Below, one piece after another: positions 236 through 61,453 of a DNA stretch of 64,000 nt. Position 1 is the stretch's first letter. Every line of letters starts with the position of its first letter. A program made the position numbers and the translations under genes. Source of the DNA: Odontocerum albicorne (Eukaryota; Arthropoda; Insecta; Trichoptera; Odontoceridae); NCBI GenBank assembly GCA_949825065.1, contig OX463859.1:10999606-11063605 (forward strand). Direction: 5' to 3'. The notes under the pieces were generated by a model. That model worked only from the letters and a program-made list of their open reading frames with translations. It had not been told where the DNA came from and searched no databases.

Positions 236-854
236 TTCTGTTACCCTTGTGAGCAAAATAAGCATTTTCTTTTTAAGACTTTCGCAACTGATTCTCTGAA
301 AATGTTTTATTCATCCATTTATTTTATTGGTTGAAAAGCTTCTGAAAGTTTTCTTCTTTATCGGTGAATGTTCCGTAAAGGAGGGACTTTCAATTAAAAT
401 TAATTTTCTCTCTACACAGACTACCGCCGAGTGTGGCTCTAGTGTATTTCCTTGATTAAACTGGGTACGTGCCTTGGTTCCTCAATGAAGGAGACTGGAG
501 CGTAACACAGTGGTGAAACATGATTTTGGAGGGGGAAAATAATTCTTAAAAACTATTAATCAAACAATAAAAAATGTTTTTTTTTCTCAGTGGTCAAGCA
601 CGCATCCCGTCTTAAAAAGAAAATGGTTTACACCAATAATCATTCAAAAGGAAGGAGGCTGTATAAAACATCTTGAAAATTACTGATATACTAAATATAT
701 TCGTATAATACGAGTATTAAGGGATTTGGATAGTCAATTTATTGTGACTAAATTAGTGTAGGATATGCTTTGTTATCTAGATCTTTACAAGATAAAATAA
801 TCTATAATGTTTTATATCTAAGTCTATATTTTTATGTTAAATAATAATTCCACG
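236..854. other. Unassigned AT-rich DNA
   Basis: I see no ORF of note, no repeat family shared with the rest of the window and no RNA gene. One octamer TACGAGTA occurs at 709. Confidence 0.5.
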
Positions 855-1018
855 ATCTTTTTGGCTTAGTTGGCAAGACGTTTATCTTTAGACCTGGATT
901 GTTTAAAAAACATTTTAGCCTGGTTTTCATTTAAAGCCTCTTAAACATGTTTCTGGTTGGTTGGAAGACATTGACACGTGTCCTTTAGGCAATACAACGA
1001 AAGTTTAATAAAATTATT
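855..1018 (+). mobile_element. tRNA-derived SINE copy, internally deleted
   Basis: The A-box-like TGGCTTAGTTGG is followed by AAGACG. The middle of the tRNA-like head with its B box is missing. The conserved body follows: CTGGTTTTCA, TTTCTGGTTGGTTGGAAGA, and the 3' end AACGAAAGT. The best full copies in this window (21026, 44499, 49907) are about 215 bp, so this one lacks about 50 bp. Confidence 0.8.
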
Positions 1019-1402
1019 TGTTGCCAAAGTATAGTAAAAAACTGGTAACGATAAAAAAAAGGGTTATTAAAATGTCTAGATGAATTAAAGAAGTAAAACC
1101 TTGCGGATTTATTGCTAAGCTGCAATAACTTTCAACCAGCAAGAAAGATGTTCAAGATCTTTAAATGAAACTAAGACTTAAACCCTTTTAACCGGTTAGC
1201 GAGTATGAACGCACGGGTGCGTGCGAGCCTAACTTATCTAAAGTTAGTACGAACGCACTGGTGCGTTTCACATTAATATCCAAGAAAAATATAGATTGTA
1301 CCAAAAAAAAAATTGAACTTACATAAAAAACTCACTACCTGGATACATATTGTTCCTATATAACTCACTAACTTACAGGTTCCTATATAACTCACTAACA
1401 AA
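1019..1402. other. Unassigned stretch with short palindromes
   Basis: Between 1209 and 1266 the pattern GAACGCAC-GGTGCGT occurs twice. Each copy is nearly self-complementary, and the two are separated by about 35 bp. Nothing else is identified. Confidence 0.4.
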
Positions 1403-1480
1403 ATTGACTATCAACGGGAATCAATCCCGTGTCTCCTGTGTTGGAAGATAAGTGTCTTACCTACTAGGCCACATAGGTCA
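1403..1480 (-). mobile_element. SINE head fragment
   Basis: The reverse complement gives the tRNA-like head: ATGTGGCCTAGTAGG as A-box region, then AAGACACTTATC, then a B-box-like GGGATTGATTCCC. The body is absent, so only about 78 bp remain. Confidence 0.75.
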
Positions 1481-1620
1481 TCATTTTCGGCGTCTAAAAA
1501 CCGAAGTGACAAAACAGTTATATCCCAAAAATCTCTCCGCTCTTGGCCGAAATCGTCCAATGCCTCCCTCACCCCTCAACCCTTGATGCGTGTATATCGG
1601 TACCAGTTCGAACAGCATTT

Positions 1621-1732
1621 AGTCTTGTTTGTGCTCCCCTGAAGATGAGGTGAAAGCCTTGAAACCGGTAGGGTTATACCGTTACAAAAAAGTGGAATAA
1701 ACAGTGTTTGATAAAAATAAATTACAATCTTA
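1621..1732 (+). mobile_element. 3' tail of an unassigned retroelement (tail D)
   Basis: This is nearly identical to 28234-28340. It contains CCCCTGAAGATGAGG, GAAACCGGTAGGG, a hairpin CGGTA...TACCG, then a GTGGAATAAACAGTG segment and an A-rich end TAAATTACAAT. The A-rich end fits a retroelement 3' terminus. An inverted pair of the last 36 bp occurs at 61762-61839. No coding part is attached. Confidence 0.6.
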
Positions 1733-3764: not shown

Positions 3765-5315
<1,551 letters not shown>

Positions 5316-6448: not shown

Positions 6449-7572
6449 AAAAGTTATACTTTTTATAGTTTATATTTTGACATCCTCATCTAATAATCTG
6501 AAAAATGCCTTTATCTTTTTAGATAATTATATTTATTTTCTTGGTTCGAAGATTAATGTCACAAGACACATAAAGGATATCCGCAGATTAAATATTCCAA
6601 CATCCTTCCAACAAAATAAGGCTTTTATCTTTTTAGTTACGCTTATTACCCCATTTTTATATTATTTAAATTGTATTGAAAAATTAAAAAAAATATCGGA
6701 AGTCATCGCAGGTAGATTTACCTGTCAAATCTTAAATGATTTCACGACTCGAATGTGTTGCCCCTATTTGAGATAATTTACCTCGGAATTATGGAATAAA
6801 TTGATGTATATACGCGAAAAGGAATCAACCCCCATTTTACCTATTTTGAAATTTCTTAAGAATTGAATGGTCGACACACACATACGAGTATATCGGCCAA
6901 AGCGTAAACTAGATTAAGTCATGTATTTGTTAAAAACTATTTATCGGTATTTTCGTTATTAACGTATTTGCGTTTATATAATATTATCGTAATTGAAAAT
7001 CTGTCATATATTAAATTGTCATTTATGAAAAATAAAAACCGTTGTTTCCTTTGCTAAAAGGGTTTAAACTGAATTTTTTTCATGAAGTTTTGAAAATCAA
7101 ATACGTTGCTTATGAATGCACAAAGTACTGAAAATAAATAAGTTGCTTATGAAAATTGTTGTAAATGTATCAAAAGGAAAAAAAAAATTGAAATGTGTTT
7201 TTTTTTGCCGAGTAGGTATTGAAATTTACAAAAAAACATTTAAAACATTTTCCTGTTGACTTATTTAAACTAAGCCCTACTGAATTAATCCTCTTGCATC
7301 ATTATATCTGTGTCGTTATGGCAGAAGTTGATATGTTCGTTTTACCTTAGTTTACAGGAGAAGCAATATTAACTTTGATAAGCTGTTAAAATCAGTACAA
7401 ATAAGCATTTTTTAAGTTTTTCCAAACCATATATCTTTTGTTTGGATAATGACTGACACACCAAATTTGGCCACAACATGCTGAGAAATAGTTTCTATAA
7501 ATTGGGAGAATAAACACAAAATGACAAAAAACGGACATATCAACTTCTTCCATAACGCCACAGATATGATGG
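6449..7572. other. Unassigned AT-rich DNA
   Basis: A second open frame at 6477-6776 has no recognisable domain. Two short stretches of it share the words GCTTTTATCTTTTTAG and GCCTTTATCTTTTTAG, 107 bp apart. One TACGAGTA lies at 6883. Nothing else is identified. Confidence 0.4.
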
Positions 7573-9670: not shown

Positions 9671-11988
9671 AGTCGCAGAATACGTCTTTTGAAAATATGA
9701 GACATAATTTTTATGTTTTTCATTTTTACACTTCAAACACTGCTAGTGGTCGATTTTAAATGAATGAATGATAAAAAAATAATGCGTTTTTTAAACATTT
9801 TAAAGAAAATATAACATATTGTAAATTTCAGTAAATTGAGGTTAACAGTAAAAACATTGCGTGTTTTTCCTAGTTTTCCATCATGTGTTTTTTTTAAATC
9901 TCCCTTTCTTTTCCCGGATATCAATGACGTTGTTAATTTTTAAATTAACAATGGTTATTCTATGTTATTTCTCTTTTGTAAAACGATTATATGGTTGCTT
10001 AGCAGAGATTGCTAATTGGCAAATAGCCTGTCATATTATTCATAGTATAAGCAAAATAAATACATTTCAAAACTCAAATAGCAATATATCACACGTTTAA
10101 ATAAATAAATCGCAAAAACTCAAATAGCAATACGTCACAGTATGCCTAAATTACAAGTAAAGTATTTGTAAATAAATAACTTAAACTTTTAGTCAGTTTT
10201 TGTCTTATGCTATAAACTATTATGAAGATAAAAACATTCAGTTGTTTAAGAATCGTTACAATGTATAAAGATTTTGTATTTTCAGCTCAACTTGAAATTA
10301 AAAAAAGGCGCATAGCATGCAATGATGCAACTAACTGAATGGTTCAGCTTATTATTTTAATTTGGAAGCATTCGAATTGACTGTCTCCAATTGATTAACT
10401 AATTATTCACGAAAGACAATTGCTTAACTATTCCTACAGTTTTTAATAAACTTTGTAATCAATAGACGTGGAATGTGAAAACCTTTTATGAAAAATGTTC
10501 AAAGTTTTGGAATCTAACACAATTTAAATGAAAGGGAAAACTACGCGTTCCACTATGAATTATCATAAAGGATAACTATTGTTTTTTCAAATATTTTTTA
10601 ATACTAACAAAAGGGAAAGAATGGTAGATTTAAACATAATCTTTGTTAACAATTTGACGTATGTTATACACGAAAATATAATTTAACTATTTAACCCATA
10701 TTTAACTGGATTTGAGGTATTTATGGAAAGCCTACCTTACTTTGTATGGAATGTTTTTTTAAACGAAATAGAACCACGACATTTTTATTTAATTGACGTA
10801 AGATTTTTTCATGCATAAAATTAAGATATTCAATGTTCAAATAAACCAAAAAATACATTTTTGTATTGTATTACACTTCTTTTGTAAACAGTACAACGGT
10901 ACTCAGAAACAAACAGTACTCTGGAAAGCAATGATTTGAAAAAACAACCCCACATAAAGAAGAAGTGTGAGAAATAAGAAATCTCTTTTGCATGTTTACT
11001 AATTATTATAATATTATATTAGATAATTAACCAATACCACCCATGATTTCAGTTTTTTTATAACGTTTCTGTACCGTTACAAAGCGGTGCATTCACGTAC
11101 ATATAAAATATTCACTAGGTTAACTGATTACTACTTCTATAAACACGTTTTATATCAATTTCCAGAATAACAAACTACATAAAACATAATAATACAGCCC
11201 CGACACATCAACGAACAGCTGAATATCAAAACTATAAAATATTCACCCTAGTATTTATCCAACACTACTTCAGAACGTGAATAAAAAAATAAATTTCAAT
11301 TTTATAATTGAATCATTACAACGCGCGCTTCATTTTATTTATAAAAGTGAACATAATGCAACATCTGCTATTAAAAATTAGAAGTATTTAAATTATTATT
11401 GCCAATATTGTGCTGCTTTGGCGACATCTGTTTTTAAATGCATTTTTTTAAATAGATAAAATAATAACATTTATATTTGATTTTTCGCTGATATTCATTT
11501 AACGATTAACACTTCATAGTGTAATTGCGCCGCTGACACCTCAATAACATAAAAGGGGCGATGTTAAAAATAAGATGAGATGATGTCTGTCTACCGCTCT
11601 ACCGCTTTACCACTCTTCCACTCTGTCCGCCGCGAGAACACTCTCTCTTGGTCACTTGCCACTTGCCACTCGCTGCCAACATTATAATAACCCTTTTCCA
11701 CTTAATAGTCCCACCCGCACTCTAATCCTTACACGGATAACAATAATTTAATTGTTCCTAGTTTGTTATTAAACTTAGTTAGAGTAAGATCAGTAATAAT
11801 AAGTTATTCATTGACTTGGTTCTTCGAAGAGGAGTATACCTTTGAGGTCCATTTCGTATTAAACAAAGAATCGATCCAATATGACGGATATTAATAAAGG
11901 ACTTTTGTCGATGCTGGTTCTGTGGCGGAATCATCTGGCTTTAAGTGGTAGAGAAATAAGTGGCGTGTGCAACTTTAGGAAACACTTC
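9671..11988. other. Unassigned AT-rich DNA with one pyrimidine-rich tract
   Basis: About 2.3 kb without a recognisable gene, LINE or SINE. A pyrimidine-rich block at about 11585-11690 contains repeated CTACCGCT, CTCT and CACTTGCCACT words. A short duplication, CAAAACTCAAATAGCAATA, occurs at about 10068 and 10115. Confidence 0.5.
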
Positions 11989-12231
11989 TATGGCGTTTTG
12001 GTAAAGAGGTACAAGTCATCAATTACTTATTTGTCCGTTTGAAGCTTTGCAACACTTGTATTCCTGAAATACAGACATCAGGTAAATTTTAAAGGTAAAC
12101 TTTGAATACATAAATTATTTATGTATTCAAGTTTACCTGAGGTCTGTATTTCAGGAATACAAGTGTTGCAAAATTTCAAACTGACAAATAAGTAATTGAT
12201 GACTTGTACCTCTTTACCAAAATGCCATAGA
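11989..12231. mobile_element. Foldback element / long inverted repeat
   Basis: Two arms of about 110-125 bp face each other around about 12118. The outer end TATGGCGTTTTGGTAAAGAG pairs with CTCTTTACCAAAATGCCATA. Inner parts such as GCAACACTTGTATTCCTGAA also match. The left arm is slightly longer because a short GGTAAA segment is repeated. It would transcribe into a long hairpin. It could be a foldback MITE or an inverted duplication. No clear target-site duplication is seen. Confidence 0.85.
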
Positions 12232-15740: not shown

Positions 15741-17354
15741 TCCATAGGATTAATCTCAATTCTTCCTAATCCAAGTTATACCAACACACTATTATACGAG
15801 TATAATATACTGTCGTATATTACATTAAATACTTCCATTATCATTGATCTCTGTCGCTATACTTCTTTCAATGTCTCTTTCAAATCGCTCATCACACGTT
15901 AACTGATAACAGAACTCCAATTGACTAATCAGATAACAGAACTCATCAACCTGCTCCAGTTTCTCCAAGATAACCCATACATCGTACACTTAGACGACAA
16001 CTTTTTCTATGTACCTATAACGCAATTATTAAATGAATATTTTTACTTGTTTCCAAAAACCTTTTTTTCAATACTTAATTATTTTCTAATTCAGTATTCG
16101 AAATAATAAAAATTGTAGATTTTTTTCTACAATAGTAATATTAACTTACAAAGATAAGTTCCGTCTTCTTTAATTTTATTTATGATTCCTTGGGTTGGAC
16201 GTACAAAAATGCATGTATTTTCGCATTAATACCGGAAAATATATGAAAACCATAATTCATTAATTAATTACCCGCTGATTTAGGTATTAAATTTTAGAAA
16301 CGATAAAAGCGTTCGCCGCGAAATTGAAATATTTCTTTATGGTCTGTGATTTCATTCAAAAAATGTCTTTGAAATTTTGCGAATATTTGACACTATGACA
16401 GAGGCGTAGAAAGAGGTTGACATCGGGGCATTTGCCAAGGGTGCTGGGTGACATGAGCTATTCCATGATATCTGTATATTAATTATAAAAAATAAAATTG
16501 AATGGTATGTTACCCGTGGTTAGTTAAATGGGGTTTTCTCGTAGTTCTTAGTTCGTTTGAACGTAAAAATATTTTTTTCATTTTATCGGTGGACATTTTA
16601 TTAGCCACCCCCTCCTGCATCACGCATGTCATAAAACAGCTTTGAGATGCAATTTTCAACTAATTACATTCCTTTTATAAATCATGCCGTTACAAAGCAG
16701 CTCAACTATTATATTATTATTTACTAATGGGCGAATTGGCTATTTAGCATTCAGCAATATGAAGTTTTACAACTTTTTAATTTCAATCATTTAACTTTTT
16801 TCGTGTTCAAAATACGATAACTCATTAGTATTTAAAAAAATATTTTATTTTACTTAGAAAAAGGGCATTAAATCAAGGATTCGACAAGAGCGCAAAAAAC
16901 CTAGCTCGCTTCTGACTATGAGTAAAAACTTTCGTTTTTTTTAGGCTTGGCTAGTTTTGACCCGTCAATTCAGGCATCATTCTCACGGAACTAGTTAGTG
17001 ATGAGTCTCGTGTTAGCATTTGCTCCATGAGGATGACGTCCGACAACTCGAAACTTTTTGAGTCTAAAAATACTAACGTGAATACAAACATTTCACATTA
17101 CGATGAAATATGGAGGATTAAGAAATATTGTTGATTTTACATTATATTTTTCCCCTTTTGAGGATTCATGGAATAACAAAAAGATCGCATTATTTAAAAA
17201 AAACATACAAGTGAGAAAAATTTAAAAAGCTCCCCTTGTGAAGTTTTTTATTCTTTTATCATATGTCCTTCGTTACACTCATTTCATCAAGTTTGAAAGA
17301 GGAATGAAAATATAAAATAAGGTTTAATAGTATAACCATTCCGTAATAGCAATT
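15741..17354. other. Unassigned AT-rich DNA
   Basis: A TACGAGTA lies at 15795 in a TA-rich site. No gene, RNA gene or recognisable repeat otherwise. Confidence 0.4.
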
Positions 17355-18824: not shown

Positions 18825-18943
18825 TATTAATCCCCTGTATTTTATTTATTTAAAATATATGCCACAATGTTAGTCCCCCCATCTTCGTAGTATATTATAA
18901 GATATTTTTATTTGTATAGGTATATGTATATCTCTGTACTTTA

Positions 18944-19498
18944 AATGAAATAAATAGAAGATCAAAACTAGCTTGGAGTTCCTTTGGACGACTAAACTAC
19001 ATCTTCAAGAGCAAGCTCCCAATCTGCCTCAAACGGAAGGTATTTAACCAATGCATCTTGCCAGTACTAACATATGGAGGCGAGACTTGGACTTTATCGG
19101 TACGAATGTTACAAAAGCTCCAAACAACACAACGCAGCATGGAAAGGTGCATGCTAGGTTATACCAGAAGAGACCGAAAACGTAATGAGTGGATACGAGC
19201 CCAAACAAAGGTTGAAGATGTTATAGAGGCTGCAAAAAGACTCAAGTGGAAGTGGGCTGGACATATCGCCCGAGCAACAGACCATCGTTGGACGTATGAA
19301 GTAATCCAGTGGTACCCAATAGGCATAAAAAAGCCTGTAAGAAGACCTAAGGCGCGCTGGGTGGACGAAATACGTAAGCATGCAGGTATTATGTGGCAGC
19401 AATGTGCAAAGGACAGGATTTTGTGGAGACAACTTGGAGAAGCCTACATCTTGCAGTGGATAGATACAGGCTGATGGTGATGGTGGTGATGGTGATGT
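18944..19498 (+). mobile_element. RTE-type LINE ORF2 C-terminal tail, intact frame
   Basis: This is the longest uninterrupted LINE coding piece in the window, about 175 codons to a TGA at 19472. In order: RRSKLAWSSFGRLNYIFKS, LPVLTYGGETWTLS, RSMERCMLGYTRRDRKRNEW, TKVEDVIEAAKRLKWKWAGH, IARATDHRWTYEV, RRPKARWVDEIRKHAG and DRILWRQLGEAYILQW. This order is typical of RTE-type tails downstream of the reverse transcriptase. After the stop comes a TGATGG-rich microsatellite, the usual RTE 3' terminus. The copy is 5' truncated (no palm domain) but young. Confidence 0.92.
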
Positions 19499-21240: not shown

Positions 21241-23188
21241 AGGGTTTCGTATTTAATTTATATAAGTTGGCCAAATGAACTTTTTTTACATATTTTATTA
21301 TGAATACTTACAATAATATTCAATATTTAATGTTAATTAATATACTGTATGCAAAAAAATCGAGAAATAAAATACTTATGACAATGTCGAATAATACTTA
21401 TTAACATTTTCACATAATTATCATTTTTTAACAACAAAATATGCACAATACAATATTGGAACCAATAAAAAAACATAAAGTTAAACATATAAAAGCAATT
21501 TGCAGCAAATAACACGTAATTTACCACCCACTGAGAATCTGATAAATATCGTTAGAAACTTTCATGTCAACCGAAAAAAGTCATTTTGTATTCATAATTA
21601 TGTTAAAACGTATTCCTGAACAGGAAACGAGAAACTATAAATGACAACCTTATTAATGTCGTAAAAAAATGTCATTCTACATAATTTAACGTAATTATTT
21701 TATTGCTATTGCAAATTGGGACATATTTATTGGGTTTTACTGTAATATTTTTCCTGTACATTGGTCAATAATAATTTATCTGCGAGCCTTGATTGCATTA
21801 AAAAATTATAAATTTATGTGTTATACGAGTACACTTAACGCCGTTTCCATGCCGGTATAGGGAGATATACTTATCTATTCACTATGGAACAATATATTTG
21901 GAGATATGTCGAATTTTCTGCAAGTGAGATCCATAGCTAAGACCATCTTCCCGAGCGATTAAATCAGCTTTCTAGATTACTCAATTAAAAAATGTCTTAA
22001 GATACTCTTTACTTTTGAATTCATTCAAGTTTTTTGTCCATTGAATTGAAATTTAATTGTAACACACTAATAAATGTATTTTAATTTTATTAGGAAATGA
22101 GTATTTTCAAATGCATATTTTCGAGACATACATTTCTATAATATTTTTACTATACTGTGAATATACAAATAACATAAGTTGTTAATTACGTTATTAAATT
22201 ATACAAAATAGTTTTTTTCCCATACATTGAGTAGATTTTCTTTGCAATCCAGATTTTATAAAACTTAGTTGCCGACTCCTGCTCCAATCAATTCATCTAG
22301 AACTACCGTAACGAAATCAGAGTCATTATCACTTGGCCCAGTCGTGTCGCTTAGGGCCATTTTCCCTTCCAAAATCCTATGCAGACCGTTTCAAATCTCC
22401 CTTAGGACTTGTACAAGTGCGCATAGCGAATTGCTCACTGGTGTGTTGTTTATAAATTTGTTTTGTCGTCTAACGATAGTTCCCATTTCGATGAGAACGA
22501 CATTACAAAATAACAGACCGGGATAAAAAGAAACAATAATTTAATTTGGTTATTTTTGAGAAGCATATAAACACTTTTATTCCATTGTTATATTGAGTTG
22601 AAGAATTTTACTAATATAATATCTAGCGATTCTCCCTATTTGAATGATTTACTCGTATGCGAAACAAAATAACAATCCCGAATAAAAAGAATTGACCATT
22701 TGAATGCGTTATTTTAGTAAAGTAACCTATCGCTTCTATCCCCTTGATATAAGGACTTGTCCATTTTTTTAAAATATGATAATAAATCAGTCAATTGTGA
22801 ATAAGTGCCAGAAATTCGACACACAATAATGAACGCTATTGCTTTTATTAGCCTGGTAATAAAATTGAGTTTTGGCTATCAATGAAGCAATATAAATTTT
22901 TGTGTCAAACTTTGATTTTTTACATTTAGAAAATGGTTAAAAAATAAGAAAACTTAATTTCTACTTTTTTTCTTAAATATGCAATGCAACCAAACTAGGA
23001 TGATTTGTGTCACCCAATGAAAGTCATAGTGCAATTATATGAGTTAATATAAAAAAAATTAAAAAAATTACGATTCTAGATAAATCCCAGTTTTAACTAA
23101 TTAATCTTCAAAAATTCAACAATCGATCTGTAAATGGACCATTTCTAGTCTTAGAAGTATTTTTTCAGATACATAACATATATGGTAT
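21241..23188. other. Unassigned AT-rich DNA
   Basis: At about 22268-22520 the minus strand holds a fairly open frame with one stop (RRQNKFINNTPVSNSLCALV ... SDTTGPSDNDSDFVTVVLDE). It is less AT-rich than its surroundings and could be a decayed exon of unknown identity. Octamers TACGAGTA and TACTCGTA occur at 21824 and 22650. Confidence 0.35.
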
Positions 23189-24739: not shown

Positions 24740-25170
24740 ATAATAAGGGTAAAAGTACGATTAATGCGTGCACTAAAGAAATGTTGTGGCGTGTCAATGT
24801 TTGAATGAGTGCAGAATGAAGATATAAGAAACGAATGCATGAATAAAATGGATGTTTTAAGTAAGATGAAGAAAAGAGCTTTAAGCTGGTTTGGACATGT
24901 GAAGAGAATGAATGATGAAAGAATGGCTAAGCGAGTATACAAGTCAGAAGTGCAAGATGTGCGTGGAAAAGGTACTCGTAGACCGAGGAAACGTTTCTGG
25001 ACCAAATTTTAAAAGAAGGTAAAGCTTGAAGTATGAATAATATAAAACTGTGCATGATGAGACGTATGCATGTGGAAGATGTTAAATTTGTGTGCTTGGA
25101 TAAACAACTTTGAAAACCTGTTATATCTGCCTAACCCGCAAGAGACACGGCGTGATGTAACATATTTACC
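24740..25170 (+). mobile_element. LINE family A tail
   Basis: The open part (24809-25010) reads QNEDIRNECMNKMDVLSKMK, ALSWFGHVKRMNDERMAKRV, and RGKGTRRPRKRFWTKF then stop. The 3' end follows, broken (MMRRMHVEDVKFVCLD, then a decayed SAYP region). Between GKG and RPRK sit two extra residues, TR, encoded by the 6-bp insertion at 24973-24980. Confidence 0.9.
24973..24980. repeat. TA-CTCG-TA, putative excision footprint in a LINE codon block
   Basis: Removing CTCGTA restores GGAAAAGGTAGACCGAGG, encoding the family's GKGRPR motif. The octamer is thus a 6-bp insertion at a TA, in frame by chance. Confidence 0.8.
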
Positions 25171-25200
25171 CCCCGAATTGAAAGTAAACAGAAACATCTA

Positions 25201-25415
25201 TAGTTCGGAAATTCTAGGATGAGTCCTGTGACAGCTCACAAATTTGCCCCACTACAACCTTATGTAATGTATTTACTTAAATAACTTGCTTTTTATTAGA
25301 ATTGAGGCTTATATTAAAGTTGATAAAATAATTAAAATTACTGAACATCGTTACAAGGTTGTATTGGGGCAAATTTGTGAACTGTCACAGGACTCATCCT
25401 AGAATTTCCGAACTA
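25201..25415. mobile_element. 215-bp MITE with about 70-bp terminal inverted repeats
   Basis: The ends TAGTTCGGAAATTCTAGGAT and ATCCTAGAATTTCCGAACTA are perfectly complementary. Complementarity continues with few changes (one in GTCCTGTGACAG) to about 70 bp. TA flanks both sides (25199-25200, 25416-25417), fitting Tc1/mariner-type insertion into TA. No coding capacity. Transcripts would fold into a long hairpin. Confidence 0.92.
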
Positions 25416-25417
25416 TA

Positions 25418-26731: not shown

Positions 26732-26739
26732 TACGAGTA
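26732..26739. repeat. TA-CGAG-TA octamer at a SINE 3' end
   Basis: Removing CGAGTA leaves GTATATTATTACACTTGCG, close to the inverted SINE 3' consensus GTATTGTATTACACTTTCG. Supports a 6-bp insertion, less cleanly than at 32644. Confidence 0.55.
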
Positions 26740-32608: not shown

Positions 32609-32781
32609 TTGTATTGTATACCTAACGCTTTCATTGTATAGAGTACTCGTAAAACCTGGCTGGTTTATTGCCATGTGGCAAACTTAAAACCAACCAGAAA
32701 GATGTTGAAGACTTTTGAATAAATTGTGTACCAACGGGAATCGACCCCACAACCTCCAAGTCTGAAACCACAAAGGTCGTC
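32609..32781 (-). mobile_element. SINE copy, internally deleted
   Basis: The reverse complement shows GACGACCTTTGTGGTTTCAG, TTGGAGGTTGTGGGGTCGAT (B box), TCAAAAGTC, ACATCTTTCTGGTTGGTTTT, TTGCCACATGGCAATAAACC and AACCAGGTTTTACG. Parts of the A-box arm and body are missing. Confidence 0.82.
32644..32651. repeat. TA-CTCG-TA, putative excision footprint in a SINE
   Basis: Deleting CTCGTA gives GTATAGAGTAAAACCTGG, which aligns base for base with the inverted SINE consensus GTATACAGTACAACCTGG. The octamer is a 6-bp insertion at the TA of AGTA. Confidence 0.8.
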
Positions 32782-33721
32782 ATATGCGTACAAAAAGATG
32801 TATTTTACTTTGGTACCCTGAACTTCGAAAATTGAATGGGGATAATGTATTTATATTTTATATACTATAGAATAATGTATTTATATTTTATATACTTAGT
32901 ACGGTTTGATGATTTCGACCAATAAACGGAGCTACATAAATACTAGTTAATTATTTAATGTTTCCATTACACAATCATAAATGTATCACCTGAATATAAC
33001 TGTAATATGTAAAAGACACATCAGTGTTCTTTTTGATAATATTTTCCTAAACAAATAAATGTTTTATGATAAAAAAAAGTTTCTTAATAGGTTGTCTATT
33101 GAATTTAAATTAATAGAAAATTTAAATGTAAGGATTTATAAAAGATAGAAGCGGACCTGTTAATAACTGTTTGTTAAATGAGATTTATAACAATTTCAAA
33201 CGCGAAATCATAAAAAAATGCAATAATTTCATATTTAGACGTTTCAAATTGTTACGCATTTACCTTAGCTCGAAATATTTTAGCCAATAAAATTATTATA
33301 AATTGAAGCAATTGATCACAAAATTTTTACTGTAGCTGAAAACTTCTACAAAATTAAAAAAAAAACGACAAAATACATAATTTAAAATTTCTAAAATAAT
33401 TAAACGTCTTAATTGCTTTCATGTTTTTCATAATATTATCGTCATGCGACAGATTTATTGAAATTTTATTAACATTTAAATTAATACTTATAAAACTGTT
33501 TGTTGCCAACATAAGAAATGTTACATGAAATATTAAAACGTTTTGGAATTTGTCTAATTAATAGGTTTTATTATTAATGCGCCTAATTATTAATATATGC
33601 TCGCGTAACTGATATTACAATGTTTAATAGCGTAAGAAATGATCGGATCAATAAATTAGAATGGATGTAATTAAGAAAGGAATTTTGAGATGTTTTCACT
33701 ATTTTGAAATAATAAGTTGCG
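32782..33721. other. Unassigned AT-rich DNA
   Basis: A short duplication (ATAATGTATTTATATTTTAT) is repeated at about 32840 and 32873. No gene seen. Confidence 0.4.
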
Positions 33722-33890
33722 AAAGACCTAATGCTCAGTATACCTATATGTCTAATATTAATGGAGAACACGGAAGATGTAGGCCGAAGCAACATTGGAA
33801 AGACTTAATAATCAGTGTATATGTCTAATATTACTGGAGAACAAGGACGATATGGGCTGAAGCAACATTGGAAAGATCTAATAATCAGTA

Positions 33891-33898
33891 TACGAGTA
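33891..33898. repeat. TA-CGAG-TA, putative footprint in the 73-bp array
   Basis: The unit is 79 bp instead of 73. Removing CGAGTA leaves AATCAGTATATATGTCTAAT, like the plain units (AATCAGTGTATATGTCTAAT). Confidence 0.85.
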
Positions 33899-34044
33899 TA
33901 TGTCTAATATTAACGGAGAACAAGGAAGATATGGGCCGAAGCAACATTGGAAAGACCTAATAATCAGTGGATATGTCTAATATTAATGGAGAACAAGGAA
34001 GAGGTAAGCCGAAACAACGTTGGAAAGACCTAATAATCAGTATA

Positions 34045-34052
34045 TACTCGTA
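34045..34052. repeat. TA-CTCG-TA, putative footprint in the 73-bp array
   Basis: The unit is 79 bp instead of 73. Removing CTCGTA leaves AATCAGTATATATGTCTAAT. The opposite orientation to 33891 shows a second event or reading from the other end. Confidence 0.85.
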
Positions 34053-34280
34053 TGTCTAATACTAATGGAAAACAAGGAAGATATGGGCCGAAGCAATATT
34101 GGAAAGACCTAATAATCTGTGTATATGTCTAATATTAATGGAGAACAAAGAAGATATGGGCCGAAGCAACATTTGAAAGACCTAATAATCAGTGTATATG
34201 TCTAATATTAATGGAGAACAAGGAAGAGGTAGGCTGAAACAACGTTGGAAAGACCTAATAATCAGTATACTTATGTTTTA

Positions 34281-34288
34281 TACGAGTA
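34281..34288. repeat. TA-CGAG-TA octamer in the 73-bp array
   Basis: This unit is 90 bp. Besides the 6-bp octamer insertion it has 11 further bases (TACTTATGTTT region). Confidence 0.7.
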
Positions 34289-34510
34289 TGTCTAATATTA
34301 ATGGAGAACAAGAAAGAGGTGGGCCGAAGCAACATTGGAAAGATATAGTTGGAGAAATTTTAATACAGGGAAAGGTTAGAAATATGAGAAATAAAATACC
34401 ATATTTGACAAGATGTATGCATGTAAACGAGGCGAGAGCTATGTATGTTAAATACAAGTATGCCGGGATCTGTCCTCTCTACCTACTCCACAAGGCATAA
34501 GGTGTGATGT
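34289..34510 (+). mobile_element. LINE family A tail, 3' end after the array
   Basis: The frame reads SNINGEQERGGPKQHWKDIV, GEILIQGKVRNMRNKIPYL, TRCMHVNEARAMYVKYKYAG and PLYLLHKA then TAA. It fits the family A order (GRPK, W.D.V..IL..GKVR..RNR, MDVNEAR), more diverged. The 3' end is GGTGTGATGTAATG. Confidence 0.85.
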
Positions 34511-35760
34511 AATGCATTACAATTTTTACAATATAAGTGTCTCAACGATTTACAAAATTTATTTTTAATAAGGTTTACAGTACTGCTGTTACCCAATAAT
34601 CATGACTCTGCAGTTAAGAGATATTGATTTAAAATGATTTCCGTCTTTGGAATTGAGAAATTATTACCAATGGACCAGTTTTTGTCTATTACTTTTTTGT
34701 GCATTTCAGAGATGGTGGTCCTGTGGAAAAAAGATGATAATGTGATCTTGATAAATTTCCACGTCAAACTATTATTAACTATCGACCCTGTTGAGGTTTA
34801 CCATGGAGTTACGTGACTACAAAAATTCTCAACATATATCACCAATTCCCATAGAGTGGTGGGAAACTTTTTGAGGTTCTGTTCATATTATAGAACCTGA
34901 TACAAAAAAATAAATAAAAAAGAAGGTTAGAATAGATATTTTTCATTTCGATCAGATGTTCACAAACTTTTTTGTATTGTACCTCCTATTAAGAGTTAAA
35001 AAAGTTGCGTACTACCACTTCTCTTCATGGGCTGATTTTCATAATAAAGGTCATTTATCTACCCTCTTTCCTACTCATTGTGTAATTAATATGCCTTAGA
35101 ATTTGAGTTAAGAAATTTATATATACGAGTATAATGCAAATTAATGAATACACATTGGAAATAATATCTCATAGGTTCAATAAACAATATTTATATAATT
35201 TAAGGATGAGAACTAATCTAATTTTATATAGACAGTTGCCAAACGCCGTACATTTTATTCTTTAAACTGGGTAACCCTAAGTTACCTCGATAAATATCGT
35301 TGGTGCAAGTCGACCTTTATATGCTTTTGTCGATTCTGTTTCATCGAATACCATTATTTTGACGTTTGCTTGCTCGCGTACCACAGTTTTCGAAACTTTG
35401 ATCTACGTTAATAAAATCAGCCAAAAAGTAAGTTTTGATAATGCTTTAAGTAGAGTTAATAAATTAATCTTGAGATGGTCTAGCCACATTGAGAGACCAA
35501 GTTGCGAAATACATCGGGTTTCTGCAACAAATTGGTAAGTGCGAAATTTCGAAAAGCGAGATTTTAGTAATCATCATCAAATGACCAATGTGCATGTCTA
35601 GTTATAATAATTTGATATTTATATTTTAGCTATTAATACTATTTTCACACAGTTGAAAAATATGTAAGTGTCCAAGACGGAATGAGGTTAAACCTTTAAA
35701 TTGAAATATATCCGAAAAAATAAAATATTACTAACTTATTTATGTCTGAAGTCTGACGAC
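34511..35760. other. Unassigned; possible hAT-like end at 34953
   Basis: CAGATGTTCACAAACTTTTT at about 34955 resembles a hAT terminus (CAG....CCAAACTTTTT) and is followed by GTACCTCCTATTAAG. No opposite terminus was found. Octamer TACGAGTA at 35124. Confidence 0.35.
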
Positions 35761-35763: not shown

Positions 35764-35771
35764 TACGAGTA
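35764..35771. repeat. TA-CGAG-TA octamer at a LINE 3' end
   Basis: Without CGAGTA the sequence reads ATATACATACTTATATATCA, like the inverted family A 3' end (CATACATACATACCATCA). Confidence 0.6.
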
Positions 35772-36665: not shown

Positions 36666-37057
36666 TCAGCTTTTAGAAAAATCAGTTTTTCCTGCTTTTG
36701 AAAGAATGTTGATAACCGCGCGATATTCAATATAAAACATTTAAAAATACGAGTATAACTAAACAGGTCTTATATTTTAATTGTAACATCACTTGGCCAC
36801 GCATTGAACGTGTTTGTCTTCATAAATATTATATGTTACGTATTCTAATTTGTTCAGGCCGGAAACTTTTAGACATTAGTAGTTTATCTAAAAAAATATG
36901 ATCAACAAAGTAATGTAAAGTACAACTTTATAAGTAAGAAAAAAACCCCATTACAATTAGTTAAATTCAATCAATAATATCAGACTTCTAATATAAAATG
37001 TATAACTTAAGAAATAAAAATAAAATTCATGCTAAGCAAGCGGGCACCCCATATTTA

Positions 37058-38905: not shown

Positions 38906-39195
38906 GTATAATACATCCCCATCTCCATATAAACCTCTTTCTATAACCATAATCTTCGATTTCGCTACATCAACTTTCAAACCTGAGGCATCTCTCATAC
39001 ACCTCAGTTATTACTCGTATATCTCCTAAATTGCCTTTATTTTCAGCAAGCATAACCATATTGTCAACATACAAATAACATTTCCACTCATTCTATCCTA
39101 TCATCTTTTAAATCGCGAACAAATGAATCTATATATAAATTAAACAACCTACGTGACATCACACACCCTTGCTTTACGCCATTAGTAATTAATAA
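38905..39195 (-). mobile_element. LINE reverse-transcriptase palm fragment
   Basis: On the minus strand TNGVKQGCVMSRRLFNLYID and SFVRDLKDDRIE give the palm block before the catalytic site. After a frameshift WKCYLYVDNMVMLAENKGNL carries YVDN where active enzymes have (F/Y)ADD. Then LRFESCC..IEDYGY. It is the only palm domain I find in the window. The catalytic motif is broken. It lies tail to tail with the family A copy at 38505. Confidence 0.85.
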
Positions 39196-40742: not shown

Positions 40743-41691
40743 CCTCAGTAAGATACAGGCATAGCTTTGTTTAAAGTTGATACGATAAATGAAAGGCAAC
40801 AAACCCAGATCCATAAAAATGGTGCGTCCGCATGAAATTACCTGCTGTTTTTTACACAAATTACGAAGTTTTAAAATTTCTTATCATACGTAAAAAATAA
40901 AAGTATCGTATTTTTGAGACGCTTTTTTGGCGCATTATTTCTTTCTCTTGAGACTTTTATGGCATTAAATTTAGTCGACCTCTAGTCTTAAGTGTAAAAT
41001 TTAAGTAATTTATCCCAACATATTTAAAAAAAATCATGGATATCCATAAGAAATGATGGATTGTTACCCTCGAAGATTGCCAATAGAAGTTTCCCACAGT
41101 AACTACTTGATCGAGGTCTCGGAAGACCAGCTGGCGGACCTCTTGGTGTTATTGTGCTTCTGCATTTGTGGTTTAACGGATGGTTTGATGTGCAACCATA
41201 AAACAACATGGACCTATGGGAATCTGGACTGATCAGTGGGAGATTAACATTCCGAGTGATTCTTGACCGAGTTTTCTACTTGTCATTTTTTTAACTACTC
41301 GTTTATTATATTTTGCGAACTTTAAAAGTTTATTTTTTGGTTTATACTATCTTATACTCGTATACTATTTAATAGGAATATCATTATTTTTGTGAAGTAA
41401 AATGAAGGACTGTGTATTTAGTTTGCACGGATTTCTTCCCCCGATTTCGTCTTTAGTTTTCCCACCAACTTAAATACATTAGTTTGGACAAAATATACAA
41501 AAAGGACCCAACCAACAAAATAAAATACTTTAAATTTACTTGAAATGACGAAAACGCATAAGTTAATCCTGTGTGCAAAATTGTCAACCAATATATGAAA
41601 AAAAAAAAAAAAAAATTAGTAAGGCACAACGTTGCGTAGAAAGTATAGAAAATATAAATTAATGAAAGTCAAATCAAATTCAAGGGGGGAA
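40743..41691. other. Unassigned
   Basis: About 41505-41560 resembles the 31441 array unit as a single dispersed copy. TACTCGTA at 41355. No gene. Confidence 0.4.
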
Positions 41692-43199: not shown

Positions 43200-43475
43200 T
43201 GGAATGGAGTCATTAGAAATGAATGCATATCATAGATAAAATTGATATTTTAAGTATGACAAAGAAATCTACATTAAGATGGATTGGACATGTGGAAACA
43301 ACGATTAACGAAATATTGACTAAATGAGTAAATAAGTAAGGTGTACATGGCTGGATAAAGTGGACCAGATATCGAATGATAGTACTCGTAAATTGTACGT
43401 AAACTATCATAGAAATAATAGAAAATTGTAATTATACACGATGAGATTTATGAAATTGGAAAAGGCCAAGGATCG
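43200..43475 (+). mobile_element. LINE family A tail, decayed
   Basis: GVIRNECIS, KIDILSMTKKSTLRWIGHVE, then WLDKVDQISN and MRFMKLEKAKD. Stops and shifts throughout. It contains the octamer TACTCGTA at 43383. Confidence 0.75.
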
Positions 43476-45958: not shown

Positions 45959-46510
45959 GATTTATAAAAGTGAAACTTTGACTTGGCAGAAGGTAAAATA
46001 AATATTGTAGAGAATGTGCACTAAGAAAAAAATGTGAAGTGTCAATGTATGAAAGATGGCGTGTTGAAAACGTTTTGTTGGAATTTGATGTTTATATACG
46101 ATGAAGAAATAACTATTTATATGGTTTAAACATGTGAATAGAATCAATGAAGCAAGAATGACTAAGTGGGCTTACAACTTAGAAGTGGGTGGAAGAGGTG
46201 GACTGAGTAAAACGTAGTTGGATTAAATTGACTAGATTTTGAAAGAAGGTACAGTAAGAAATATGAATTATTGTCCAATACGAAATGTGTGAATGTGGAA
46301 AATGTATAAAAGTACGTACAAACATATTTTGTAAATTAACCAGATTTTGAAAGAAGGTAGGGTAAAAAGTATGAATATAAGATTATGCATGACGAGATAA
46401 ATGAATGTGGACGAAACGAAAGTTGTGTTCTAGAATAGAAAAGTTTGGAGATCGGTTCTCTCTGCTTATACCACAAGAGACACGGCTTGATGATATGTAC
46501 TCGTATGTAT
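45959..46510 (+). mobile_element. LINE family A tail with internal repeat
   Basis: Decayed pieces: LLFTWFKHVNRINEARMTKW, GGRGGLSKT, LD.ILKEGTVRNMN, a partial second copy LTRF.KKVG.KV.I.RLCMT, MNVDETKVVF, EKFGDRFSLLIPQETR. The ILKEG segment occurs twice (about 46240 and 46345). The 3' end carries the octamer at 46498. Confidence 0.75.
46498..46505. repeat. TA-CTCG-TA, putative footprint at a LINE 3' end
   Basis: Removing CTCGTA gives GATGATATGTATGTATGATA, matching the family A 3' end GATGGTATGTATGTAT seen at 20890, 27040 and 25680. Confidence 0.78.
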
Positions 46511-51076: not shown

Positions 51077-51424
51077 ATGTAGAATACAAAATAGATCTCT
51101 TAATTATTCAAAAGATTCGAAGTACGAGTATTTTCAATTCCAAGAGGCTTTTTATACGTAAATTGTCAATTTTCGACAGATGCTCCAATGAATCAAAAGT
51201 GACCTTGGATCACTTGTGTATCAATTTAGATATCGATATTGGTAAATTCGTTCAACAAGGTCATTCTGTGTGCGAGTGGTGACGCTCTTAATAGCCCAGA
51301 TCGTAATTATGTCTCCGAAAACATTATTAATGAACAATAGCGTAAATAATTGTCAGGTATAATAACTAATAGTTTGTCTATCTACAAGGGGCTCGCTATT
51401 TCTTCTATAAGTGATTTGTATATA

Positions 51425-51685
51425 TACGAGGGTCATCCAGAAAGTAAGGTTACAACATTTATGTAGGATCGAAAAAAACTTTACAAATATATTAAACTAT
51501 TTTTTAACGTAATCGTCGTCGAGATCGAGACATTTATGTTGTCGGGGCACCAGCTTTTGTATGCCTGTGGCATAGACCTCCGCCGCCAGCTCTTTCAGCC
51601 ACTTCTTCACACCTTCCTCGACCTCCTGATCGTTGAAAAATTGTTGGGATGTAGTGACACACCCACGTCTCATCCCCCGTTACGA
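51425..51685 (-). mobile_element. mariner 3' end with CGAG terminus
   Basis: The terminus CGAGGGTCATCCAGAAAGTA follows a TA (51423-51424) and is a typical mariner-type inverted repeat. Inside, the minus strand encodes FFNDQEVEEGVKKWLKELAA, EVYATGIQKLVPRQHKCLDL and DDDYVKK, the transposase C-terminus. The rest is cut where LINE family E begins (51690). Its last bases CGAG equal the core of the abundant TACGAGTA octamer. Confidence 0.85.
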
Positions 51686-53870: not shown

Positions 53871-54156
53871 ATTAACTAATTTTCAATAGTTATACGGTGT
53901 GTTAAGAGAAGCTCTCTCCATTCGATTATGTCCCATTACTTAATCGAATGAAACGAGCTTCTGAGGAATATTGGAGTCTGGAAAGGAGTGGTTATTCAGT
54001 TTAAAACACTCAAAGTGATGTGATGACAACGATGGTGATTATACAAAGTGTCTTTTTCTGATCTTATCTACGAGTAATTTGGAGAAAACAATTCAGGATA
54101 AAATAATTATGCGTACCAGTGCTCGAGTATTTCGGACTGTTAATATGTGTACATAA

Positions 54157-55250: not shown

Positions 55251-55774
55251 AACTATGTTATTTAAAAATATGTGTATAACAAAGAATTTTTATTTAGTTA
55301 AAATTAATATCCGGTATTCGGGTGGATATTAATGATTTTTAAAACACTACATTTGTTATAATTAAAAAATTTAAAAAACCTGTTTAATTAAAGATTCAGT
55401 TACGATAATTGATCTAATCTATGTATTACAATTCAATTAGTAGCATCAGAACATTAAGAGGTAAAGGCAGCGAGCATTGAGCACAGAGTTAAGCGGCTTG
55501 GCTTGATAGCTTGTTACGAGAACAAATTGGTCCAGTGATTAACAGAGTGGGATAATTAACATGTTAATTAGTTGTAATAATGCATTATACATTGTTGGGT
55601 TTATCTTCTGCGATCACAAGAACGCGTAAAGTGAATGCAAAAATCAAATTGCTTAACGAGAATCACGCGAGATATTATGCCTAGATGGGGAATATTATAC
55701 GAGTATATCGGTAGGTCTATGGAAAATAAAGAGAGTAATGCAGGTATAACGAAAATAAAATAGTAATGTATATA
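55251..55774. other. Unassigned
   Basis: TACGAGTA at 55698. No gene seen. Confidence 0.4.
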
Positions 55775-58310: not shown

Positions 58311-59405
58311 ATCAATATACCTATATTAAAACGTGTAGCTTCTATAAGGGACTTAGGAATTATATTTGATGAAAAACTTTCATTGATAGAACATGTGAAT
58401 AAAATCACTCGGGAGAGTTCAAAAATCTTGGGATTTGTACTAAGAACTGCCCAACATTTCTCAGATTTTCGAACATTAAAACTGCTGTACTGCTCATTGG
58501 TACGTAGGCGCCTTGACTACAACTCATCAATATGGTCTCCTCATTACGCCGCCCATGCGCAAACTTTAGAACGTGTACAAAACAAATTTCTAAGATTCAT
58601 ACATTTTAAACTTGGAATACCACATAAACAAAGAAATTATCCCTACTTATTAAATGCAATGAAACTCTTGAATCTGTGTGACAGAAGAAAAACAGCCGAT
58701 ATAGTACTGCTATACAAAATCATTCACTCAGTGATTGATGCACCTCACTTACTCGCAAGCATTTCATTTCGTATTCTCACTAGATCCACAAGACAGCTCA
58801 ATCTCTTTTATACCGAAAATTGCTATACTAATTATAAAATCAACTCCTCTATAATTCGTATACAAAGACTTGGAAATGAGTTTTGCAACAATTATAAATA
58901 ACCTAATATAAACGAAACATTCAGGACAACACTTCGCCTCTGGAGTTGAGTAACCCTGCATCAACATGTGGAAAGTTTCGATTCTGCAAAGCAACTTGCA
59001 TCTCGTTCTACAAGTGAGCCCATCTGTTTTTTTGTATCTCAAGATCTGTCCATAAAATTCTCAAAAAATGCAATTTTTGTTCTATGTAAGCGTTGTTCCA
59101 CTAAAAACAAATCTGAGTTCTTCACCTCTATAAAATAAGTATCCGACTATTACGTAAGTCTGCTTGGTGAAGTTAGGTAATATTTTGTGGTATACATACA
59201 TACATAACATATATTGAACTTAAATATACGCATAATTATTAAATAATTTTAAACAATGACTGTAATCTATTATTACTGCTGCTTTTGTATCTTCATGTTA
59301 GTTTAAGATAAAGTTTTGTATTATTTGTCAATAATTTTAAGTACTTGTATAACCTGTCACATGTTCATCTGTATATAAAGACACTTGTGTCGTTAATAAA
59401 ATAAA
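58311..59405 (+). mobile_element. LINE family G tail, long intact frame with 3' UTR
   Basis: A frame of 196 codons (58311-58901, stop TAA) has no start codon of its own. It reads VASIRDLGIIFDEKLSLIEH, SSKILGFVLRTAQHFSDFRT, LKLLYCSLVRRRLDYNSSIW, SPHYAAHAQTLERVQNKFLR, later DRRKTADIVLLYKIIHSVID and APHLLASISFRILTRSTRQL. This is the region after the reverse transcriptase in Jockey/CR1-like elements (RDLGV..D..L....H, SLVR..LEY...W.P, LE.VQ..FLR). The 3' UTR ends in TTAATAAAATAAAATTTAAA. Palm and endonuclease are missing. Confidence 0.92.
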
Positions 59406-59689
59406 ATTTAAAAAATAAATATCCACTATTTGTTATTTTATTTATAATATTAACCGTAGCTAAAGTTGGTTGGCTGGAAGTAATCGGTGAATATCAAAAT
59501 TTATAAGGATTTTTTGCATGATAAAACCATTTTAATCAAAGAATAAATGAACAAGTCGCAATGAATTGTTAAATTAATAAGAAAAAACATAAAATGCAGC
59601 CATTTTTTATATATGAGCATATTATATACTTTCGACTTCTTAAAACCAAAATTACAATAAGCTAAAATAGCTTACAATAATAATTACAA
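59406..59689. other. Unassigned
   Basis: Nothing recognised. Confidence 0.35.
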
Positions 59690-60000
59690 TAAAAAGTACA
59701 ATTTATATAGCTCCGGTTAAATGGCATACTCTCCTCAAAGGCGCTTTAACTCGAGATTCGAATCAACTTTTATTGATAGAGTAAAAAAATATTAAAAAAT
59801 AATCTCATATTATAAGTTGAGTGTAAGGATATGAAGGAAGGAGCTGCGGTCATTAGATTACGTACTTCTTTGCATCTGCATTTGTTTATAAACAAATATT
59901 CGGTAAAAAATTTACCAACGAAAGACAATCTACAAAGACACCTTTGTAGATCAGTCGATATGTGTTGGTAATACGAGTACATTCGGCTTTAGGTGTAAGT
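59690..60000 (-). mobile_element. Repeat B copy, near full length
   Basis: AATTTATATAGCTCCGGTTA, CTCCTCAAAGGCGCTTTAAC, TCGAGATTCGAATC, AAGGAAGGAGCTGCGGTCAT, ACGTACTTCTTTGCATCTGC, CTACAAAGACACCTTTGTAG and CATTCGGCTTTAGGTGTA. Contains the octamer at 59972. Confidence 0.82.
59972..59979. repeat. TA-CGAG-TA, putative footprint in repeat B
   Basis: Without CGAGTA the copy reads GGTAATACATTCGGC, matching AGTAACACATTCGGC in sister copies (56372, 9138 region), with C to T creating the TA. Confidence 0.78.
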
Positions 60001-60829
60001 ACATTCTGTTGTCCCTCGTCTACCCATACTGTTTCTAGGATCTAATTAGGTTCTCTTAGAGTGCGATTGTATTTGGAATAAAAATGAAATAAATCATACT
60101 TTGATGAAAGAGCTATCCGCGGGGTAGGGGAGGAATCTCGTCTATGTGTGCCACACTGGAGTGTAAAAAGGATAGTGGTGTCACAGATACAAACTTTCTG
60201 ATACAATAGACTGACATAAAATTATGTCACAAGGATATCCTTAAAGAAAGAATGATTAGAGCTTATCATTTTATATCGAATAAAAAGGAAAATAAAATAA
60301 AATTTCTTTTATAGGATAATAGCCAAATGTAAATTTTTTAGTAACATTTTTGAAAAGAACAATTGATGATATATCTAGAATTTTATTTCTTCAGATTCAA
60401 AAAATAAATTAGACCAAACATGGCGTCCGATTATTTATCTTTTGTACACAGTGTCCTCACGCTATCCTGCCAGTAAGTACTCCAAGTCACCCCGGAAAAC
60501 TAACTAAAAGGGGGTGGCGAGAGGGATGAAAGGACAGATTTTATTGCGAATCCCGAGATCCCACCCCACTGACACCAGAAGTGTTTAGCTCGGAGTGTTT
60601 GTTACTATTTGATGAGATTAACAGAGCACGAAATGCATTAAAACGAAAAGGATCTACGAATAATTATGTCAAACTATTTAATTTGTACATTATAAAATTC
60701 GTATTTCACACTTTATTATTCTTCATATCTCAGAAGAGATAACAACATATGTATGATAGTTGAAGTTCCTTTGTCCTGGTGAAAAAAAAACTATTTTCAA
60801 ACAAAAACTGATTCTTGTTAACCGAATAT
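60001..60829. other. Unassigned
   Basis: No supported feature; GC-richer patches at 60115-60180 and 60470-60600. Confidence 0.4.
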
Positions 60830-61445
60830 GAACATAAATTGATAATCGAACATGAACATGAATTGTGTCTGAATATGAATATAAATTGGCAACCAAACAT
60901 GATAGTACATTTTATTAGAATATGAATATAAATTGATAACCTAATAGGAACATAAATTGTATCCAAATCTGTAAACAAGTTGTATCCTTTATGAATATAA
61001 ATTCGTATACAATAGATAGTTTTCGAATATGAACATAAATTGGCAACAAAATGTGAACATGAATTTTATCTGAATATGAAAACAAATTGTATCCTAATAT
61101 GAATATAAATTGGTATCCATGTATGCACATAAATTGGTATCCAAATACGAAGAAAAAAATATTCTTATCATATATGTACAATATTGTATATAAATTGGCA
61201 TTCAAATTCGAAAATAAACTGTATCCGAATATGTAGACAAATTGTATCCTTATAAGAATATAAATTATCCAAATATGAACGCAAATCGTACCCGAATATG
61301 AACATAAATTGTATTCGAATATTACCTAACATTAATTTATAACTGAACATAAACATGAATTGTATCCGAATATGAACACAAATTGATGAATATGAACACA
61401 AATTCGTATGCAAATACGAACATTAATTTTATTCGCATATGAACA

Positions 61446-61453
61446 TACTCGTA
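61446..61453. repeat. TA-CTCG-TA, putative footprint in a minisatellite unit
   Basis: GAACATACTCGTAAATTATA loses CTCGTA to become GAACATAAATTATAATCCG, the normal unit phase (GAACATAAATTGTATCCG). Confidence 0.8.

Follow-up and report, generated by a model that had tools for sequence, protein, structure and literature searches.

The overhang of the mariner Mos1 is 3 nucleotides (nt), and the excision scar of Minos, a Tc1-like transposon from Drosophila hydei, is the very octamer that is the subject of this report, TACGAGTA in one orientation and TACTCGTA in the other. Published accounts describe a characteristic six-base-pair (bp) footprint of Minos on excision (PMC3386967) and a Minos end that, read from the primer, is TACGAGCCCCAACC and with the TA reads TACGAG (PMC3680223). 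For Tc1/mariner elements, they describe overhangs of 2 or 3 nt, a scar that consists of the overhang bases flanked by the duplicated TA (for Hsmar1, T(T/A)A), repair by non-homologous end joining, and a preference for bendable TA sites (PMC3878927). For Hsmar2, they describe inverted ends that contain CGAGGG, and a reconstructed enzyme that left only non-canonical scars (PMC3770610). Here, we analyze the octamer in a 64,000-nt stretch of the genome of the trichopteran insect Odontocerum albicorne (contig OX463859.1; C28:10999606–11063605; hereafter "the window") and across the assembly of 1,287,057,991 bases in 1,241 contigs.

Our analysis indicates, with a probability of about 80%, that the octamers are excision scars of a TA-targeting, CGAG-ended cut-and-paste transposon, probably from one or more of the mariner families with CGAGGG ends that reside in this genome. 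A first-pass annotation of the window had read the octamers as excision footprints of a TA-targeting, CGAG-ended element, either Minos-like or a mariner. The footprints are borne out by empty sites, by surveys blind to the word, by a palindromic target, and by an excess over one control word, and resident families of the mariner kind are found in the genome; the Minos label is not borne out by end sequence.

Abundance of the octamer

The octamer occurs 30 times in the window (16 TACGAGTA and 14 TACTCGTA), at all 30 positions listed in the first-pass annotation and nowhere else. The terminal bases of one end are thus present in both orientations, as in a footprint. Markov models of orders 1–3 predict 1.5–2.0 copies for the window (the annotation had estimated 2–3), and 100 order-3 simulations of the window gave a mean of 1.95 and a maximum of 6. 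Of all TA-NNNN-TA words in the window, the octamer exceeds its expected count by the largest factor (16.1). The second, TATATATA, arises from long TA tracts and has a ratio of 6.9, or 13.8 with its palindromic expectation halved, in which case its z-score exceeds that of the octamer. The octamer again ranked first in 13 other loci comprising 130 kb (42 copies vs 3.6 expected; ratio 11.6). The 24 one-mismatch neighbors of the octamer show no excess in the window (49 vs 47.5 expected). Locus L014 was excluded from the 13-locus word statistics and from the one-mismatch count of the larger sample because of a TACGAGG satellite, and two of the three octamers of a minisatellite were dropped in part of the window statistics.

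Genome-wide, the octamer is present in 381,502 copies on both strands (190,753 + 190,749), corresponding to 296 per Mb or about one per 3.4 kb. This count is nearly thirteen times that of the single control word used genome-wide, the octamer reversed, which contains no CpG and no flanking TAs (15,081 + 15,070 = 30,151). The order-2 expectation in the sampled loci (5.92 in 234 kb) scales to about 33,000 copies genome-wide, similar to the control. The excess is thus near 350,000 copies, part of which lies in tandem arrays (for example C1:72037–72787, with a 50-bp period, and C1:24114–24699).

Six-bp insertions at palindromic TA targets

To the window we added 18 ten-kb places on 16 other contigs, giving 244 kb and 85 octamers, and asked for each octamer whether a paralog aligns across it and how long the paralog is at that point. 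An alignable paralog was present at 16 of the 85 octamers, and at 10 of these 16 a paralog was exactly 6 bp shorter. The remaining six comprise two with the same word or length only (minisatellite units), two with different words of the same length, and two others. An octamer ancestral in the repeat, which the annotation had named as contrary to its claim, is accordingly indicated at 2 of the 16 sites only, the two minisatellite units. As controls we took 850 further TA-NNNN-TA words whose four middle bases include two or more G or C. A paralog could be aligned for 333 of them, and 4 of the 333 had a 6-bp-shorter one (Fisher 1e-12 vs the octamers). Merging two octamers that lie in related units of locus L011 gives 9 empty sites of 15 (Fisher 2e-11). 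Two empty sites are particularly clean: L011:739 reads CTTATACGAGTATTAA where L003, 93% identical, reads CTTATATTAA, and L004:6493 reads TAAATACGAGTACATT where the window, 92% identical, reads TAAATACATT.

The same insertion emerges from surveys that are blind to the word. Specifically, the 6-bp insertions found in 204 kb fall into 44 separate loci, of which eight show rotations of CGAGTA (including two in the related L011 units), every other 6-mer class being represented at most twice; in the window alone, CGAGTA rotations account for 5 of 21 such loci. A short insertion at a duplicated TA, absent in sister copies, is therefore observed, as in a footprint.

Within the window, the annotation had claimed eight sisters that lack exactly 6 bp, and six of these were reproduced. 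The octamer at 24973–24980 (− strand) adds two codons within a GKG..RPRK motif of a long interspersed nuclear element (LINE) tail, where three decayed paralog alignments are 6 bp shorter; a protein-level test of the same site found no homolog for the 67-residue piece. The octamer at 32644–32651 (− strand), in a repeat resembling a short interspersed nuclear element (SINE), has nine paralog alignments exactly 6 bp shorter. In an array of 73-bp units, the octamers at 33891–33898 (+ strand) and 34045–34052 (− strand, in opposite orientation and at a neighboring TA) each lie in a 79-bp unit, and each has four unit alignments 6 bp shorter. The octamer at 59972–59979 (+ strand), in a dispersed repeat, occupies six columns that are absent from four sister copies in a multiple alignment, and was not counted as empty in the stricter paralog test. 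The octamer at 61446–61453 (− strand), in a minisatellite, has five alignments 6 bp shorter. The claimed sisters of 35764–35771 (+ strand) and 46498–46505 (− strand) were not recovered, the alignments there being 61–74% identical with no clean 6-bp gap.

The flanks of the octamers have the form of a target site. After merging of same-strand copies with similar flanks within 1.5 kb, 82 of the 85 octamers remain separate. With these 82 sites oriented to read CGAG, the bases before the octamer are A51 T47 A48 and those after it are T45 A41 T50, yielding the consensus ATA-TACGAGTA-TAT, which is palindromic about the TA (positions −3 to +3), a symmetry required of a TA-targeting transposase that acts on both strands. 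Targets of the form A-TA-Y occur at 48 of the 82 sites (22.2 expected; p 2e-9). The octamers thus lie at a palindromic, AT-rich target of the Tc1/mariner type. An apparent bias of scar orientation with flank in the window (7 to 2; p 0.18) became 13 to 8 in the larger sample (A..C 13, G..T 8) and was dropped, orientation being independent of flank there.

The 73-bp array (33749–34289) constitutes a small natural experiment on target choice. The four unit junctions that carry an insertion (three octamers and one TACC) read CAGTATA, and the four junctions that carry none read CAGTG or CTGTG; CAGTATA is the better target. The third octamer of the array (34281–34288, + strand) lies in a 90-bp unit that is 17 bp longer, not 6. 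Separately, translation of the region 33721–34343 gives a piece similar to the reverse-transcriptase tail of a LINE (a weak match to P0040 by tblastn; E 0.004–0.008), and the array may be an amplified LINE fragment.

These data bear on the reading of the octamer as a functional or favored word, such as a binding site or a component of repeat units, amplified by arrays and dispersed repeats, and not as a scar. Some octamers do lie within tandem arrays (C1:24114–24699, C1:72037–72787, and a 43-bp array in the window), and in the sampled loci L001–L013 a strong excess is shared by two further TA-NNNN-TA words (TAGGTATA, 11.0-fold, and TACCTATA, 8.5-fold over expectation, nearly as high as the octamer and perhaps from a tandem array). 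Against this, nearly all sampled octamers stay separate on merging, the units that they break up by exactly 6 bp at a TA belong to unrelated SINEs, LINEs, and arrays, and their one-mismatch words are not in excess. We regard a functional word as very improbable.

At least some of the scars were inherited. The 43-bp minisatellite at 30096–30273 contains TACTCGTA in units 1, 2, and 4 (30107, 30150, and 30236) and TACTAGTA in unit 3, so expansion of the array began from heritable DNA that already contained the scar; its three octamers represent one event, a single footprint that was amplified and afterwards mutated. Locus L011 likewise has the octamer in two related repeat units with identical flanks, and in both cases the scar was inherited before the duplication. 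In the sample excluding L014, one-mismatch words number 160 against 158.8 expected, so that there is no halo of decayed copies, and the mean divergence of the scars, estimated as close to zero, has an upper bound of roughly 4% per site. Words expected from CpG decay are at expectation (TACAAGTA, 14 vs 12.4; TATGAGTA, 13 vs 14.2). Programmed or somatic elimination, in which the element is kept in the germ line and cut from the tissue that was sequenced, so that the assembly shows scars, would fit the scarcity of resident copies relative to scars and the missing decay halo. It is very improbable, given that the scars of the minisatellite (three of four units, with a one-base variant in the fourth) and of L011 predate duplication, and that many CGAGGG mariner ends are still in the assembly.

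Candidate source elements and the cleavage they would require

The window has one recognizable CGAG-type mariner-like end, which follows TATA and reads TACGAGGGTCATCCAGAAAGTAAGGTTACAACATTT (51425–51460, + strand; end word CGAGGGTCATCCAGAAAGTAAGG). Its assignment to mariner is based on resemblance to the end in L013 and on a TGDETWV piece read by eye. No partner for this end was found in the window, and a search there for TACGAG...CTCGTA pairs of 60–6000 bp gave none with good inverted ends (best 15/24). The annotation's statement that the element is mostly no longer resident fits the window in this respect.

Elsewhere in the genome, such elements are present. L013:46–976 has inverted ends that match at 22 of 24 positions and a predicted Transposase_1 domain (51.7 bits; cut-off 24). 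L005 and L027 have the end CGAGGGTTGCTACTTATG followed by what reads by eye as a mariner transposase remnant (family A). The corresponding end word, TACGAGGGTTGCTACT, occurs with one mismatch allowed at 3,363 places genome-wide, against 6 for the control. Among 100 exact family-A end places listed, 16 opposed pairs are seen on end words alone, nine spaced at 1,150–1,334 bp and seven at 512–835 bp, which are the spacings that full-length elements and internally deleted copies would give. Beside its end word, the family-A copy L049 carries a frame-broken, putative mariner transposase with HTH_48 at 46.2 bits (cut-off 24.1) and Transposase_1 at 21.8 bits, just below its cut-off of 24; in its translation, counted by eye, the third catalytic D is separated from the second by 34 residues. 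Only the L049 and L013 families are tied to a transposase by Pfam matches; the others are mariner by resemblance. Some of the alignments among L049–L051 and L027 are inverted, as opposite ends would give.

A broader word, ATATACGAG followed by A, C, or G (ATATACGAGV), occurs at 8,272 places genome-wide, against 4,169 for the control. Of the first 100 places, all within the first 16 Mb of C1 and with ends classified by eye, 23 are CGAGGG mariner-like ends or close variants: 15 of the family at window position 51425, three GGTCCGATAAGTACTT-like, three GGATCAAATATAAACGAGA-like, one GGTTCAATAAGTATCC, and one of the GAGATATG family. Two of the 15 form an opposed pair (C1:6947991–6948917). The TACAAGATATTGTGTTTGC family was rejected as a TA-CGAG end, its repeat extending upstream of the TA. 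Judged by these matches, TA-flanked inverted ends that begin with CGAG, together with a probable mariner transposase, are present in the genome, as expected of a source.

The scars could then arise as follows. Insertion of the transposon, at sites resembling ATATATAT, would duplicate the TA, and its later departure would deposit its four terminal bases between the two TAs. Specifically, the non-transferred strand would be cut 4 nt inside each end, generating 3′ CGAG overhangs; two such overhangs could pair at their outer bases (C-G and G-C) around a two-base mismatch; and repair to either strand would give CGAG or CTCG, and hence TACGAGTA or TACTCGTA. The makers of the scars would be the mariners rather than a lost Tc1-like element, a source we favor because the mariners are the only abundant CGAG-ended elements seen.

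Several observations weigh against this account. Only 16 of the 85 sampled octamers could be aligned to a paralog, and six of the 16 have no exact empty site. The mariner-like piece adjoining the end at 51425 has no Pfam match; 68 of the 100 listed family-A end places have no exact partner in the list; and no partner end (at most three mismatches) was shown in L049–L051 or L027. These four family-A loci are 91–95% identical to one another over alignments of at least 235 bp, whereas the scars have no decay halo, although the scar upper bound of about 4% still allows a match. Finally, TACGATA, the scar of a 3-nt CGA overhang, is no commoner in 194 kb than expected (29 vs 31.5), so the excess that the classical 3-nt mariner stagger would give is not seen. 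Since Tc1/mariner scars derive from overhangs of 2–3 nt, a mariner source therefore needs a non-classical stagger.

Other candidate repair products were counted in the window. Of 20 variant words, the 13 longer ones, including the two-overhang word TACGAGCTCGTA, were absent from the window, most being expected less than once anyway. The other seven gave TACGATA 12, TACGTA 14 (15 expected), TACTA 146, TACAGTA 23, and one each of TACGGTA, TACCGTA, and TACGAAGTA.

The stagger is the point at which a Minos-like source has its appeal. A Minos-like Tc1 element with CGAG ends, a 4-nt stagger, and a 6-bp footprint might have swept the genome and since become rare or lost. The Minos footprint and end, as published (PMC3386967, PMC3680223), would lead to TA-CGAG-TA with no new assumption about the stagger, and the lack of TACGATA enrichment agrees with this. 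The end sequence does not support such a source, however. The Minos end TACGAGCCCCAACC (the element ends CGAGCCCCAACC) has 0 exact copies in 1.287 Gb, in a search for end sequences that included no search for a DD34E transposase, and 0 exact copies in the viral collection. Near matches number 3,433 genome-wide, against 1,861 for the control. Nothing Minos-like was recognized at 29 near-match places inspected (four 3-kb loci, eight 2.2-kb stretches, and seventeen 351-bp stretches), of which the 351-bp ones are too short to hold a partner and the 3-kb ones were read only around the match; the eight 2.2-kb stretches contain no inverted partner word. Two repeated near words were set aside, both lying mostly within other dispersed repeats with conserved upstream flanks: TACGAGCCCAAACC, of which 5 of 8 copies share the upstream flank attcattcgtt or attaattcatt, and TACGAGCCCCAACA, of which 5 of 5 share ...ctcga[cg]. 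In addition, word families that are not mariner-like each occur, by eye, at most about twice among the 100 ATATACGAGV places listed. We consider a Minos-like source unlikely, though it is the main competitor to the mariners.

Either the stagger of the resident mariners is 4 nt, or the scars are the work of a Tc1-like element with CGAG ends, and we favor the mariners. Setting the roughly 350,000 excess octamers against the 3,363 family-A terminal words, each resident family-A copy would correspond to roughly a hundred excisions in the germ line, or fewer if other families share in them. We tentatively propose, as a possibility that falls somewhat short of an even bet, that the cut made by the CGAGGG mariners lies four bases inward from each end, which would set them apart from the mariners studied so far; that they left about a hundred heritable scars per copy; and that the 6-bp scar is among the commonest recent insertions or deletions of this genome, a readable record of the places visited.

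Further features of the window and relation to known systems

The remaining octamers of the window, likely excision footprints, lie on the + strand (TACGAGTA) at 709–716, 4472–4479, 6883–6890, 15795–15802, 21824–21831, 26732–26739, 29541–29548, 35124–35131, 36748–36755, 51123–51130, 54069–54076, and 55698–55705, and on the − strand (TACTCGTA) at 4764–4771, 22650–22657, 32024–32031, 39012–39019, 41355–41362, and 43383–43390.

The window also contains other repeats. A 219-bp element at 25199–25417 has 63-nt inverted arms (97%), TA-like flanks, and the ends TATAGTTCGG, and is perhaps a different, TA-targeting miniature inverted-repeat transposable element. A perfect 37-nt inverted repeat with one base between its arms lies at 2699–2773, and a foldback element with 106-nt arms, 93% complementary and separated by 33 nt, lies at 11987–12231. 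The open frame of 184 codons at 18920–19474 encodes a LINE reverse-transcriptase tail (64% identical to P0001). Words from the dispersed repeats of the window had 0 matches in the viral and prokaryote collections, and neither Rfam families nor tRNAs were matched.

In the sampled loci, dispersed elements with inverted ends containing TACAAG[AG]TATTGTGTTTGC were seen at L002:1705, L009:7752–8151, L012:2997–3419, and L014:7668, two of them about 400 bp long, and the sequence between their ends resembles by eye a mariner-type N-terminus. The satellite of L014 (positions 200–2100; C20) has some 45 units of about 39 bp containing TACGAGG. In L034 and L035, TACGAGCCCCAATCTAGTGGTACG lies within a repeat containing CTAGTGGTAC words. 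Two shorter words were also noted. TACAGTA, which Tc1 elements with CAG ends would be expected to leave as a scar, occurs in the window at twice its expected count (23 vs 11.6). Of 99 TACATA sites that could be aligned (window, L001–L014, and L045–L048), 17 have a paralog that lacks 4 bp, reflecting either Tc1-type 2-nt scars or slippage of a CATA microsatellite.

Studies of excision scars usually treat single loci; in the open-licence literature we found no comparable scar density and no genome-wide census of excision scars, which is weak evidence that none exists. The octamer would provide roughly 350,000 oriented landing sites in one assembly, so that insertion preference, choice of repair strand, the rate of excision, and the number of excisions per surviving copy would become countable. 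It would also indicate that the main effect of a mobile element on a genome can lie in small insertions that keep the reading frame (6 bp, two codons), with few copies remaining for repeat annotation to detect. If the mariner source is true, the cleavage rule assumed for mariners changes.

Footprints as such are familiar; the unusual points here are the number of octamers, the scarcity of the resident element, and the possible 4-nt stagger of a mariner. Minos shares with the present case the 6-bp footprint and the TACGAG end, and differs in that no exact Minos end occurs in this genome and in that the scars here number hundreds of thousands. The DD34D mariners, such as human Hsmar2, resemble the families described here in their CGAGGG ends, TA target, and HTH_48 and Transposase_1 domains, and the spacing of 34 residues that we counted in L049 is a further likeness; other mariners are described with shorter staggers than the 4 nt that the scar here would need. 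Sleeping Beauty and Hsmar1, like further Tc1/mariner elements, leave the same kind of scar, overhang bases flanked by TA, but from an overhang of 2–3 nt rather than the 4 nt that the octamer would require.

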